The position numbers and the translations under genes were made by a program. A stretch of DNA of 53,145 bases from an uncultured Erysipelotrichaceae bacterium (GTDB lineage Bacteria > Bacillota_I > Bacilli_A > RFN20 > CAG-826): assembly GCA_902769185.1 (NCBI GenBank), contig CACXNV010000008.1:1-53145 (forward strand), read 5' to 3'. A model generated the notes under the pieces. That model searched no databases. It was not told the DNA's origin and saw only the letters and a program-made list of their open reading frames with translations. This document shows positions 46,993-53,145 of this stretch, in pieces (within the stretch, counting starts at the first letter, position 1; every line of letters starts with the position of its first letter).

Positions 46993-47670
46993 ATGAAAAC
47001 TTTAAAGTTATATCATGGATCTCAGATTATAGTGGAAAAACCCTTATTTGGTTACGGGAAGACATATAACGATTATGGGCAAGGTTTTTATTGTACAGAA
47101 CATATTGAACTTGCTAAAGAGTGGGCTTGCTCCATCAACCAAGATGGTTTTGTAAACGAATATGAGTTAGATATGAGCAATTTGTCCGTTCTTAATTTAT
47201 CAAGCGACGAATTTCATATTTTGAATTGGCTAGCAATTTTACTTGATAACCGATTAGTTAATTTGTCTAGCCCCGTCTCTATACGAGCAAGAAAATACTT
47301 ATTAGATAATTTTTTGCCTGATTATAAAAAATATGATGTTATTGTTGGTTATCGCGCTGATGATTCATATTTCTTGTTTGCAAGGTCGTTTATTAATAAT
47401 GAAATATCTCTTAAGCAATTAAGCTATGCAATGAAACTAGGCAAACTAGGTGAACAGTTTTGCTTAAAATCCGAGAAGGCTTTTAATCAAATTAGATTTG
47501 TTAAGGCTGAAGTTGTTCGAAGTTCTAAATACCATTTTTTAAAAAAACAAAGAGATGAGAAAGCACGTAGTGATTATATTAAAGAATTAGAAAATGATGA
47601 TATTGATGAAATTTATATAAGAGATATTATCCGTGAGGGCTATAAAAATGGTGATCAAAGATTACGATAG
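46993..47670 (+). CDS. DUF3990 protein, likely toxin of a toxin-antitoxin pair
   Basis: The N-terminal 60 residues match DUF3990 (LYHGSQIIVEKPLFGYGK, DYGQGFYCTEHIELAKEWA), an ADP-ribosyltransferase-like fold in which the first segment binds NAD. DUF3990 genes in gut Firmicutes usually pair with a small regulator. Length is 225 residues, with a GAGG ribosome site. The downstream HTH gene overlaps its end. Toxicity is inferred from context. Confidence 0.7.
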   Translation: MKTLKLYHGSQIIVEKPLFGYGKTYNDYGQGFYCTEHIELAKEWACSINQDGFVNEYELDMSNLSVLNLSSDEFHILNWLAILLDNRLVNLSSPVSIRARKYLLDNFLPDYKKYDVIVGYRADDSYFLFARSFINNEISLKQLSYAMKLGKLGEQFCLKSEKAFNQIRFVKAEVVRSSKYHFLKKQRDEKARSDYIKELENDDIDEIYIRDIIREGYKNGDQRLR

Positions 47671-48289
47671 TCGCTTTATAGAATATGTGATGAGAAATAT
47701 GGGCGAGGCATTTTGCTTTGTTCAAGAAGTGGTGTGTCAAGATTTAGATGCATTTATGGTTATATTCACGCATTTTGGAGTTGCAAAAGAAATTGAATCG
47801 GGCAATCCAACTTATATATATGGGATGTCTGGAACAGAATGGGTATATAAAACATATGAACTCGCAGGTTTGAAAATTAATTTAGGTAGATCATTAGACA
47901 AATCACATCATTTAGATACATATTGGACCGGGTATATTCTTGCCTATTACCAGTTTAAAACCGGATTATCATTCCAATATATTCATGACCAATTATCAGT
48001 TTATGACATCAGAAAACTATATTATCCCCTTCATGAGGCTAGCGAAGATAAAGCGGTTGATGTAATTAATAAACTAATTAAACGAAAATACGTTACTAGA
48101 CTTCAACAAAGAAGAAAACTAGTAGGATTATCTCAAAGCGAATTAGCTAAAGCTTCTAATGTTAATATTAGAACATTACAAGAATACGAAATAGGCACTA
48201 AGGATATTAATAAGGCATCAGCCTTAACTGTTTATAACCTATCAAAAGCACTAAACTGTAAAGTGGAAGACATATTAGAACTTATTTAG
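47648..48289 (+). CDS. XRE-type helix-turn-helix protein, probable antitoxin
   Basis: The C-terminal 60 residues are an XRE helix-turn-helix (LQQRRKLVGLSQSELAKASNVNIRTLQEYE). The N-terminal 140 residues, with DTYWTGYILAYYQFKTGLSF, resemble the partner protein commonly found beside DUF3990 genes. The frame opens with GTG at 47633, but ATG 47648 has a GAGG spaced about 10 nt upstream (213 residues). The 23-nt overlap with the toxin gene suggests coupled translation, and the upstream inverted repeat is its likely operator. Confidence 0.75.
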   Translation: MVIKDYDSRFIEYVMRNMGEAFCFVQEVVCQDLDAFMVIFTHFGVAKEIESGNPTYIYGMSGTEWVYKTYELAGLKINLGRSLDKSHHLDTYWTGYILAYYQFKTGLSFQYIHDQLSVYDIRKLYYPLHEASEDKAVDVINKLIKRKYVTRLQQRRKLVGLSQSELAKASNVNIRTLQEYEIGTKDINKASALTVYNLSKALNCKVEDILELI

Positions 48290-48361
48290 TTGCCTAAGTG
48301 TCAACAAAATATAGTTTTTATCTTTAGGAATCATTTCCCTTGTTTTGTAATTTCGTTGTGT

Positions 48362-48382
48362 TATTATAGTATCAAGTGATAC
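48362..48382 (+). promoter_or_regulatory. Promoter/operator palindrome of the MqsA-like gene
   Basis: GTATCA-ag-TGATAC (48369-48382) is a perfect palindrome that overlaps the likely -10 (TATTAT at 48362-48367 or TATAGT at 48365-48370). It is a probable autoregulatory site. Confidence 0.55.
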
Positions 48383-48391
48383 CAATCTAAT

Positions 48392-48844
48392 ATGGAATTT
48401 AAAAAAGATTTAATTAAATCAGAACCTTGGTGTTTAAGATGTGACACCATTAATGAATACGAGCTTACTATAGAAATAAGAAAAGTTACTGTCAAAGGTA
48501 CCCCTGTGGAATTTGAAGCAATCAAAGCATATTGTCCACATTGTGGAGACCCTTTGTTTGTTTACGAAGCGGAACGTATTAATCAAATTCGTTGCTTTGA
48601 TGAATATAAAAAGAAAAAGGGTTTATTAACCAGTGAAGAAATAATTGAAATTAGAAATAAATACGGTCTATCTCAAACCGATCTAGCTAAAGCAATAATG
48701 GTGGGTAAAAAGAATATTGCTAGATATGAAATTGGAAAGATTCAAGATAAATCAATTGATTTACTGATTAGATTATTAGATAAACATCCACATTGGTTTG
48801 GAATTAAAGCAGAATCAAAAAACAAGGAATTAAAAGCGGTATAA
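48392..48844 (+). CDS. MqsA-like antitoxin: zinc ribbon plus helix-turn-helix
   Basis: The 150-residue protein has two Cys pairs (CLRC, residues 14-17, and CPHC near 49-52) forming a zinc ribbon, then an XRE-type helix-turn-helix in the C-terminal half (IRNKYGLSQTDLAKAIMVGKKNIARYE). This resembles MqsA/YgiT-type antitoxins. It is immediately followed by a DUF2442 gene, 2 nt apart, rather than by an MqsR-type toxin. Confidence 0.7.
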   Translation: MEFKKDLIKSEPWCLRCDTINEYELTIEIRKVTVKGTPVEFEAIKAYCPHCGDPLFVYEAERINQIRCFDEYKKKKGLLTSEEIIEIRNKYGLSQTDLAKAIMVGKKNIARYEIGKIQDKSIDLLIRLLDKHPHWFGIKAESKNKELKAV

Positions 48845-48846
48845 AT

Positions 48847-49143
48847 ATGTTTCACAAAATAAAAAATGTTATGGCAGCATGTAACTACTCATTAATAGTG
48901 GAATTTGATGATGGAACAATCAAAGATTATGATTTAAATCCACTAATTGAGCAAAATGAACAATTTAAGAAATTAAAAGAAAATGAATTATTCTATAATG
49001 CTCACATTGATGTAGATAGATGTGGAGTGATTTGGGATGACACCATAGATATTTCAAGTGAAGAAATATGGGATAATGGTGAGTTGCTTGATTCGCAAAC
49101 CAAAGAAGTGCCTAATAAGAAAACCTTAAAAGCTTTTAAATAA
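48847..49143 (+). CDS. DUF2442-type small protein
   Basis: 98 residues with the DUF2442 pattern: YSLIVEFDDGTIKDYDLNPLI, then ELFYNAHIDVDRCGVIWDDTIDIS. The family is usually found in pairs with DUF4160 or HTH genes and is suspected to be part of toxin-antitoxin systems. The function is unknown; here the partner is the MqsA-like gene. Confidence 0.7.
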   Translation: MFHKIKNVMAACNYSLIVEFDDGTIKDYDLNPLIEQNEQFKKLKENELFYNAHIDVDRCGVIWDDTIDISSEEIWDNGELLDSQTKEVPNKKTLKAFK

Positions 49144-50730: not shown

Positions 50731-50815
50731 GCGGATATGGTGGAACTGGTAGACACGCAAGACTTAGAATCTTGTGAGGCGACTCGTGCAGGTTCGATTC
50801 CTGTTATCCGCACCA
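50731..50815 (+). tRNA. tRNA-Leu (TAG)
   Basis: 85 nt with CCA encoded and a long variable arm (GAGGCGACTCGTGC region), typical of class II tRNA. The anticodon stem CAAGA/TCTTG encloses CTTAGAA, so the anticodon is TAG. It borders the accessory island that follows. Confidence 0.95.
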
Positions 50816-50945
50816 AAACTGTCGCATTAAAATCATTAAATATACATAAAAACGTTAATCTAACACCTAAAACGCATATTTTACATAAAAAACATGTCGC
50901 AATTTTGAGACAAAAAAGTAGTGGCAAAATCACCATTTCGAATGA

Positions 50946-50974
50946 TTGGTGCATTTTGGTGCAAATTTTGGTGC
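50946..50974 (+). repeat. Direct-repeat iterons upstream of the AlbA_2 gene
   Basis: Three GGTGC iterons at 50948, 50958 and 50970, spaced 10 and 12 nt (about one helix turn). The 29-bp block recurs identically at 52448-52476 after the gene. It lies just upstream of the promoter of the AlbA_2 gene. Confidence 0.8.
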
Positions 50975-50990
50975 GAGCCGTCTTTATATG

Positions 50991-51008
50991 TGCTATGATA
51001 AAAGCACA
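50991..51008 (+). promoter_or_regulatory. Extended -10 and small inverted repeat of the AlbA_2 gene
   Basis: TGCTATGAT (50991-50999) is an extended -10 element. TGTGCT (50989-50994) and AGCACA (51003-51008) form a 6-bp inverted repeat across it. The Shine-Dalgarno AAAGGAG lies between it and the ATG. Confidence 0.5.
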
Positions 51009-51022
51009 AAAAAGGAGATATT

Positions 51023-52447
51023 ATGGCAATACCAGCAAATATTCAAACTATTTTAAATGATAGTGTAGTTGAAAGCGTAAGAGTGGAACTAAAAGAAGGA
51101 TGGAATCCCGAAACAATATTGCACACTATTTGTGCTTTCGCTAATGATATAGATAATTTTTATGGTGGCTATATTATTATTGGTATTGATGATAAAGGTA
51201 ATGTTTTGGGTCTTGATGTTAATAAATATGACTTTCTTCAAAAAGAAGTGGTTAGATATTGTAAAAAGTGTCTAGAACCATCTTACATTCCTGTTATTGA
51301 TTTATTAGATTATCAAAATCAAAAAATCGTAGTGCTATGGTGTCCGGCAGGTAGCAATAAACCTTATAGATGCTACGAAAACGTTTATAAAGAAAAGAAA
51401 GATACCAGATACTTAACATATGTTAGAAAGGGGTCTTTAACCATTACTGCTTCTCGAGATGAGGAAATTGAACTTCAAAATATAGGAAGCTACGAGCCTT
51501 TTGATGACCGCGTTAATTATCATTATGGATTAGACGTTATTGATAGAGGAGTTGTTGAAGAATATTTGAAACTTTCAAATTCCTCCCTGCTCCTTGGTTT
51601 TAATGAAAGACCAACAACTGATATTCTTTTAGATTTAAAAGCGATTGGTGGCCCAAAAGAAGATTATCACCCTAAAAATATAGCGTTATTAATGTTTACT
51701 AAAAAACCAAGCAATTATATACCGTATTCATATATAGAATTAACAATCATTAAAAATGATTCTGGTGATGAAATAATTGAAAAAACATTCGATTCAGCTT
51801 TATTTAAACAATACTCAGATTGCATGGATTTTATTAGTAATAAAATTATAGAGAAGAAGACTATCAAAGTTGAAGGAGAATATAAATCAAAAACTGTTTT
51901 TAATTATTCTTTTGAGGTTTTAGAGGAAGTTATTGCTAATGCTATACTTCATAAGTCTTATCAAATGAATGAGCCAGTAAGTGTAAGAATTGAAACAAAT
52001 AGAATTGAAGTAACAAGTATTCCTGGCTTTGATAGAACAATAAGCGACACATCTATTAAAGAATTAAAGCCTAGATCAAAAAGATACCAATACCGCCGTA
52101 TTGCGGAGTTTTTAAAAGAATTAAATATTGTTGAAGCTAAAAACACTGGATATCCGACAATCATTAAAAAGAGTCTAGATAATAAATCAGTTTTGCCAAT
52201 TATTGACATGAATAAAGAAAGAGATTATGTCACTGTAATCATTCCTATTAATGAGTATTTCGATGAAGAAAAATTATCTTTAAGGGATAAAATCATTAAT
52301 GCTTTAAATGCATCACCAATGACAAAAACTGAACTATGCCGCTATTTGGGCTATGCAAGAGTGGTTAATTCTGTATCACATCAATTAACAAAACTTATTA
52401 TTGATAATAAAGTTATTGAAATTAACAAAAAATACCATCTAAAATAG
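51023..52447 (+). CDS. AlbA_2 (Schlafen-like) / HATPase_c_4 / winged-helix protein
   Basis: 474 residues. Residues about 17-150 form an AlbA_2 domain (VRVELKEG, then FANDIDNFYGGYIIIGIDDKGNVLG). Residues about 285-420 form a GHKL-type HATPase_c_4 domain with EVLEEVIANAILHKSY and VTSIPGF. The last 50 residues are a winged helix (SPMTKTELCRYLGY). Such proteins are annotated as putative DNA-binding or RecG-like regulators and are common in gut Firmicutes accessory regions. The gene has its own promoter and ribosome site and is flanked on both sides by identical iteron blocks. Confidence 0.8.
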   Translation: MAIPANIQTILNDSVVESVRVELKEGWNPETILHTICAFANDIDNFYGGYIIIGIDDKGNVLGLDVNKYDFLQKEVVRYCKKCLEPSYIPVIDLLDYQNQKIVVLWCPAGSNKPYRCYENVYKEKKDTRYLTYVRKGSLTITASRDEEIELQNIGSYEPFDDRVNYHYGLDVIDRGVVEEYLKLSNSSLLLGFNERPTTDILLDLKAIGGPKEDYHPKNIALLMFTKKPSNYIPYSYIELTIIKNDSGDEIIEKTFDSALFKQYSDCMDFISNKIIEKKTIKVEGEYKSKTVFNYSFEVLEEVIANAILHKSYQMNEPVSVRIETNRIEVTSIPGFDRTISDTSIKELKPRSKRYQYRRIAEFLKELNIVEAKNTGYPTIIKKSLDNKSVLPIIDMNKERDYVTVIIPINEYFDEEKLSLRDKIINALNASPMTKTELCRYLGYARVVNSVSHQLTKLIIDNKVIEINKKYHLK

Positions 52448-52476
52448 TTGGTGCATTTTGGTGCAAATTTTGGTGC
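52448..52476 (+). repeat. Direct-repeat iterons downstream of the AlbA_2 gene
   Basis: Three GGTGC iterons at 52450, 52460 and 52472, with the same 10/12 spacing and identical 29 bp as the upstream block. It begins immediately after the AlbA_2 stop codon and 10 nt before the next ORF. Confidence 0.8.
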
Positions 52477-52485
52477 ATTTTAAAT

Positions 52486-52812
52486 ATGAATAACGAAGAT
52501 AAAATAATTGCAAAACTCAAAGAAGAGAATGAATATCTTAAAAGTATTTTGCGAATGCACAATATCTCATTTGAAAAACCAAAGGAAATAAAACAATTCG
52601 GTTTTTCAGACAATGAAAAAATAAAAACATACATATCTTATTTCGCTGGTAGAGACGATATCTTTGCGTATGAATATTATTCAAAAGAAGGCAAAAGAGG
52701 TTTTTCTCCAGCTTGTCTGGGTATAAACAATTTAACAGGTTATTGTCCAAATACATGTAGTGAATGCGTTAACAAACAATATATCGGTATAACAGAAAAG
52801 CGAGGCCATTAG
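52486..52812 (+). pseudogene. Truncated TOTE-type primase N-terminus
   Basis: 108 residues: a coiled-coil start (DKIIAKLKEENEYLKSIL) and then a segment resembling the zinc-containing AEP-primase start of TOTE conflict proteins (YFAGRDDIFAYEYY, GFSPACLG, CPNTCSECVN). Full TOTE primase proteins are many hundreds of residues longer. It stops abruptly at KRGH. No Shine-Dalgarno is visible. Family assignment is from memory of the motif pattern and is tentative. Confidence 0.5.
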
Positions 52813-52867
52813 AAATGCGCTTCATAAGAAAATAGATTTATTGCGTTTCTCTAATTTAGGTATCTAA
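52802..52867 (+). pseudogene. Remnant of an AlbA_2/HATPase-type coding sequence
   Basis: In the frame starting at 52802 the sequence reads EAIRNALHKKIDLL, close to the HATPase motif EVIANAILHKSY of the neighbouring AlbA_2 gene and to the family consensus, before a stop shortly after. It overlaps the end of the truncated primase ORF in another frame. Likely a scar of past rearrangement. Confidence 0.35.
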
Positions 52868-53144
52868 ACATATGACCATTACATTTCTTATAAGTGTCAT
52901 TTAATACATCTCTAATAGAGTGATAATCAATATGTAATTCTTTACTAGCTTTTCTTATCGAGGGATAGACTTTGATGATATCCCCTTTTTCATCTACTTC
53001 AGTGATTGGGATCGCTACTTTGGAAGTAGATGATTTTTCATATGGCTCTATATGAGTAGGGATATCATCAAAAGGATATCTTCTCCACATATAGTTAAAA
53101 GCAGTCTTTCGTTCTCCTTTAAGACATTTATCAATACTTCTTAT
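52851..53144 (-). CDS. NUMOD-containing (HNH homing-endonuclease-like) protein, cut by window edge
   Basis: The reading frame extends past the right edge (first full codon at 53144) and ends at 52851. The last 50 residues (YPSIRKASKELHIDYHSIRDVLND, then GHMFRYLN) match NUMOD1-type DNA-binding repeats of HNH homing endonucleases. An earlier repeat, IDKCLKGERKTAFNYMWRRY, lies just upstream. The N-terminal part, probably with the HNH nuclease, is outside the window. Confidence 0.65.
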   Translation of the reverse strand: MRSIDKCLKGERKTAFNYMWRRYPFDDIPTHIEPYEKSSTSKVAIPITEVDEKGDIIKVYPSIRKASKELHIDYHSIRDVLNDTYKKCNGHMFRYLN

Positions 53145-53145
53145 A

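Follow-up and report, generated by a model that had tools for sequence, protein, structure and literature searches.

The DNA analyzed here (the window, 53,145 nucleotides) is contig C8 of a 67-contig, 1.34-Mb genome assembly from an uncultured Erysipelotrichaceae bacterium. Close to its end, the forward strand carries a gene (51023-52447) for a protein of 474 amino acids in which Pfam models identify an SLFN_AlbA_2 domain (residues 17-139, 51071-51439; 8e-17, 62.2 bits versus a cut-off of 25.3) and a HATPase_c_4 domain (residues 318-406, 51974-52240; 5e-6, 26.8 bits versus a cut-off of 26), in agreement with the first-pass annotation, which had described an AlbA_2/HATPase gene between two repeat blocks. 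A third domain, a C-terminal winged helix (wHTH; residues 415-474, 52265-52444), comes from an AlphaFold2 model built on a 46-sequence alignment (pLDDT 85.7), where helices 420-430, 435-441, and 449-460 are followed by a short beta wing; Pfam HTH matches to this region all fall below their cut-offs. Foldseek searches matched the model over most of its length to DIP2311 of Corynebacterium diphtheriae (PDB 3lmm; E 3.6e-21, 15-17% identity), the AlbA_2 domain to 2kyy (26% identity) and Schlafen N-domains, and the second, GHKL-type domain to ATPase domains of histidine kinases. DIP2311 and 2kyy are the best fold matches, but both are distant, uncharacterized proteins. The catalytic carboxylates of SLFN13 follow the pattern E-x4-E ... 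D and include E205 and E210 (PMC5862951). Residues E17 and E22 of the window protein are invariant in 46 homologs and, in an alignment by eye, appear to correspond to that pair; D56, the third acid, is not conserved. The gene product is a bacterial Schlafen-type protein with an RNase-like domain of predicted activity, and proteins of this kind are reportedly linked to anti-phage defense. Its relatives in phage, plasmid, and virus collections are few and distant.

This gene is bracketed by two identical copies (29/29 positions) of TTGGTGCATTTTGGTGCAAATTTTGGTGC, both on the forward strand, at 50946-50974 (block 1) and 52448-52476 (block 2). Each block contains three GGTGC iterons, which start at 50948, 50958, and 50970 in block 1 and at 52450, 52460, and 52472 in block 2, so that the spacings of 10 and 12 nt reported initially are confirmed, as is the position of the second block immediately after the stop codon: the TAG ends at 52447 and block 2 begins at the next base. 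Because the other exact repeats reported in the region do not exceed 14 nt, an exact 29-nt pair separated by 1.5 kb goes well beyond anything chance would produce. We found no third copy in the 1.34-Mb genome at up to 3 mismatches, and a reversed-pattern control gave 0 matches there. An assembly artefact was ruled out, since the bracket recurs in independent metagenome-assembled genomes (MAGs) with different block sequences. Consensus matching predicts a promoter with a -35 box GTGCGA (50971-50976), a 17-nt spacer, and a -10 box TATGAT (50994-50999). Block 1 had been placed immediately upstream of the promoter, but it is not wholly upstream, as the likely -35 box is overlapped by the third iteron. 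A Shine-Dalgarno sequence, AGGAG (51013-51017), precedes the ATG at 51023. This promoter layout is shared with orthologs L037, L038, and L039, and block 1, the proposed autoregulatory operator, is conserved in orthologs G126, L037, and L039. An Rfam scan over the block returned no match.

Ten nucleotides after block 2 lies the broken N-terminus of a TOTE conflict-system primase-helicase (AEP-TOTE, by domain search; 52486-52812, forward strand), interrupted after about 105 codons. On the minus strand at the contig end, within 52486-53145, an I-HmuI/NUMOD1-type HNH homing endonuclease gene runs off the contig, and Rfam detected no intron in this stretch. Farther upstream (46993-49143), a DUF3990 gene and its HTH partner match the PADLOC candidate system PDC-M42A/B and are followed by MqsA-like antitoxin and DUF2442 genes beside ribosomal L13, which together make up a small defense/toxin-antitoxin cluster. 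AbiE-type genes occur within a few kilobases of block-bearing loci or their remnants in four genomes (L011, L014, L037, and L015).

A scan of GTDB contigs returned 451 relatives, of which 80 were kept, and 84 non-duplicate homologs were compared. A recognizable promoter-proximal repeat array was present in 75 of the 84, usually containing or abutting the -35 box. The array is TGTCGAGTnACTCGACAAAA in most Clostridia homologs, and words found elsewhere include GGGGTAAGTTAA, GTCGTAAGTTA, AAGTGGAC, GGCCAATTTTA, and GCGCATATGCGC. In clostridial homologs the last half-site is itself the -35 box, TTGACA, usually 17 nt before TATAAT, a layout counted on about 40 loci. Upstream tandem scores of at least 16 were seen for 43% of the target genes versus 5.7% of 283 neighbor genes (p 5e-19), and three or more TCGA half-sites occurred in 54 of 87 proximal windows versus 1 of 80 distal ones. 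Direct repeats in the family are spaced by about 11-13 nt and palindromic pairs by about 22-24 nt; thus, the helical-turn spacing noted for the window block is common. The operators also track the protein. The helix motif GY[KRQ][GSA][IVL] goes with TCGA operators (52:8 versus 1:21, Fisher p 4.5e-12), and operator similarity correlates with wHTH similarity when identity over the rest of the protein is controlled for (partial Mantel r 0.26, 0 of 999 permutations as high), in a test that removes shared ancestry only in part and measures correlation rather than binding. The block was confined to this gene in G000, G126, G224, G172, and G247, and a regulon was ruled out on that ground. A type III toxin-antitoxin RNA-repeat model was set aside in view of the repeat length (10-12 nt) and the overlap with the promoter. 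The repeat array is most likely the protein's own operator, as predicted from this comparison, and the simplest reading is that the protein represses its own gene through its wHTH (negative autoregulation). The original suggestion that the block would be a site for the gene's own winged helix is thus supported by the 75 arrays, the covariation with the wHTH, and the restriction of the block to the gene.

The downstream copy has a different distribution. The expectation that homologs would have iterons beside them held for the upstream side, but the downstream copy is missing in most; conserved proteins with no flanking array are therefore the usual case downstream, not upstream. Because most homologs lack the downstream copy, operator function does not need it. 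A locus's own block was detected behind the stop codon (score of at least 20) at 11 of 84 loci versus 2 of 283 neighbor-gene controls. Every one of the six Bacilli clade members has it, though the operator word has shifted from GGTGC to GGCCAA within the clade. Other loci with a downstream copy (L021, L067, L103, and L077) are scattered, some of them on long, uncertain branches, and the bracket label needs at least 5 changes on a tree from which the wHTH columns were left out. The bracket is a constant feature of the Bacilli clade to which this gene belongs and occurs sporadically outside it. At individual loci, the two copies share even their spacer bases over 29, 33, 41, 47, and 69 nt, and lineage-specific changes are present in both copies; homogenization or recent duplication is therefore indicated. 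DNA similarity between loci also respects the blocks: between the window and L039 (69%) it extends from block to block only, and between the window and G126 (78%) it begins precisely with block 1 and stops a little past block 2, with different neighbors in both comparisons. The L039 unit is on its own, flanked by trpS and a glutathione-peroxidase-like gene (names assigned by eye from translations). L021 (G194:C41) has a third array resembling the operator about 100 nt ahead of block 1, which looks like the remnant of a tandem unit since lost.

A search for empty sites, proposed in the first-pass annotation, succeeded in Collinsella. Locus L067 (genome G247) has the order flank, block, gene, block, flank. 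At the orthologous interval between convergent genes, four other Collinsella genomes have one block and no gene: G253 (flanks 95% identical to those of G247), G256 (94% and 88%), G251 (84% and 77%), and G252 (87% and 78%). No AlbA_2 relative was detected in G251, G253, or G256 at E≤1e-5, and G252 has only distant ones. Since exactly one block is present at the corresponding position in each of these four genomes, the bracket behaves like a unit that is gained or lost with precision. The gene is present in one of five block-bearing Collinsella genomes, and parsimony counts one gain versus about three losses, which, with one genome per species, slightly favors gain at a standing block over repeated loss. 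The blocks in Collinsella fold into a perfect 17-bp stem in which the changes seen in G251 and G252 are matched, and the solo blocks likely serve as hairpin terminators between the convergent genes, to judge from their sequence. Solo blocks persist where no cognate protein was found; therefore, either the block has another use or the gene was lost recently. In G251, a dispersed intergenic repeat of about 100 bp (L179, L183, L185, and others; more than 30 copies) adjoins the solo-block site, and the block was absent from the copies inspected.

At the window locus itself, genome G160, a near relative, has a 96% identical flank at the same tRNA-Leu, and the whole region, including any block, is missing. 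Because other genes occupy the spot, this is not a clean empty site; since G160 has no block, the window blocks either arrived together with the gene or disappeared along with it. The stretch after the tRNA-Leu (50731-50945) is hypervariable in the genus, where relatives with 93-97% identical upstream DNA hold different genes, as at an integration hot spot. Flank matches for empty sites were absent in the genera of G126 and G007, and in the family of L039, trpS is kept and the glutathione-peroxidase gene was not found within 1.5-kb flanks. A search of the GGTGC clade yielded no clean solo block and instead revealed internal deletions: G168, G061, and G172 keep both blocks, but three separate deletions have taken out the Schlafen and ATPase regions, so that just the 3' part of the gene is left. 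In G061 one of the blocks is degenerate, and in G168 the second lies beside a contig end. Two further observations concern single loci. Positions 9887-9950 of L015 (G018) are a decayed unit next to an Abi_2 gene, in which the last codons of the gene and a degenerate block are all that is left. Locus L037, a MAG contig labeled Spirochaetota, has a gene 97% identical to the Bacilli gene of the window, which may reflect misbinning or recent transfer.

On balance, we consider it probable that block 1 is an autoregulatory operator, that block 2 is a second copy of this operator, and that block, gene, and block form a discrete unit of gain and loss. We infer DNA binding, repression, release by a signal, and the role of the second copy from what is observed: the repeats, their confinement to the gene, their promoter position throughout the family, the covariation with the wHTH, and the one-block gene-less relatives. 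Several copies of the winged helix would bind the phased half-sites of block 1 and cover the -35 box, and the bound protein would keep expression of its own gene low until repression is lifted by a signal that acts via the ATPase domain. Recombination or gene conversion may maintain the near identity of block 2 to block 1, and lineages could gain or lose the unit cleanly, with a single block being left behind or used. In addition, repression may be tightened by looping if the protein binds at both ends.

Looping could, however, be the main function of the bracket, with the protein bridging blocks 1 and 2 over 1.5 kb for tight repression and the gain and loss of the unit being incidental. The presence of the full half-site set in both copies, and the matched changes (GGTGCG in both copies of L039; GGCC words in L032 and L040), are consistent with this. 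On the other hand, the near identity extends to the spacer bases (in L040 and L067, over 47-69 nt), more than binding by itself would call for, and most homologs manage with no block 2; we regard this explanation as somewhat unlikely. A bolder version of the preferred reading, which is possible but unlikely, is that the block is both a silencer of a toxic Schlafen gene and a recombination handle for entry and exit at resident solo blocks, possibly gated by protein occupancy; if true, this would be a gene cassette with an operator as its attachment site.

It had also been suggested that the downstream copy controls the next gene, and the protein could repress both its own gene and TOTE. Block 2 does lie about 10 nt ahead of the TOTE start in G000, G172, G061, and L037, and an intact TOTE protein of 887 residues is encoded behind the second block in G172. 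However, TOTE follows block 2 in the window clade only; G126, L039, L021, and L067 are bracketed and have unrelated or convergent genes after block 2, and where TOTE is present, the block sits in its ribosome-binding region, not at an evident promoter. Because the neighbors differ among loci and the window TOTE gene is broken, control of the next gene does not hold as a general rule, and we find it quite doubtful as an explanation of the bracket, although control of TOTE by block 2 within the window clade is possible. That the blocks are transcription terminators or insulators rather than operators is very unlikely: the stem between convergent genes in Collinsella fits such a role, but block 1 of the window overlies the promoter, a comparable hairpin is not formed by the GGTGC block, and the block sequence tracks the wHTH. 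Finally, the unit boundaries at the blocks, the single-gene unit in different contexts, and the single-block sites in relatives might suggest the ends of a transposon-like element mobilized by the protein itself, a highly improbable reading given that the repeats are direct, the unit occurs once per genome checked, no domain of a known recombinase or transposase was identified in the protein by searches that included Pfam and Foldseek, and no target duplication was seen outside the blocks.

Bacterial Schlafens are now reported as widespread defense effectors. Operators that track the wHTH throughout a family would provide a testable answer to the question of how Schlafen expression is restrained, namely by autoregulation with lineage-specific specificity, and the homolog set amounts to a collection of natural wHTH/operator pairs. 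The operator bracket and its one-block gene-less relatives offer a simple system for studying how single defense genes come and go at fixed sites.

Proteins of this kind are known. A Schlafen RNase with a minimal histidine-kinase ATPase domain and a wHTH was described as a BREX-linked auxiliary effector (PMC12839542); the window gene has the same three-domain architecture and defense-type neighbors (TOTE, AbiE), and no BREX genes were seen in the neighborhood examined around it. The passages of that report consulted here describe no operator or bracket. Our searches of the open literature on iterons, AlbA_2, COG2865, and PF04326 turned up no account of these operators or of the bracket, so both the family-wide, apparently autoregulatory operator and the operator bracket of this clade appear to be without prior report in the literature searched. 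Further parallels lie in other systems. Winged-helix proteins that bind iterons, such as TubR, and the iterons of plasmid partition and replication are one, and the window locus resembles them in having phased direct repeats of about 10-12 nt beside a wHTH gene. Unlike those iterons, the window repeats are chromosomal and lie on the gene's own promoter; no replication or ParA/TubZ gene was found beside them, the neighbors being tRNAs, ribosomal proteins, and TOTE. In integron gene cassettes, a recombination site is located directly behind the stop codon. The bracket is similar in that a recombination-prone site immediately follows the stop codon and the gene and site form a unit; it differs in that no integrase was noticed among the neighbors read and no attC structure was seen, the block would double as a promoter operator, and its sequence is lineage-specific.
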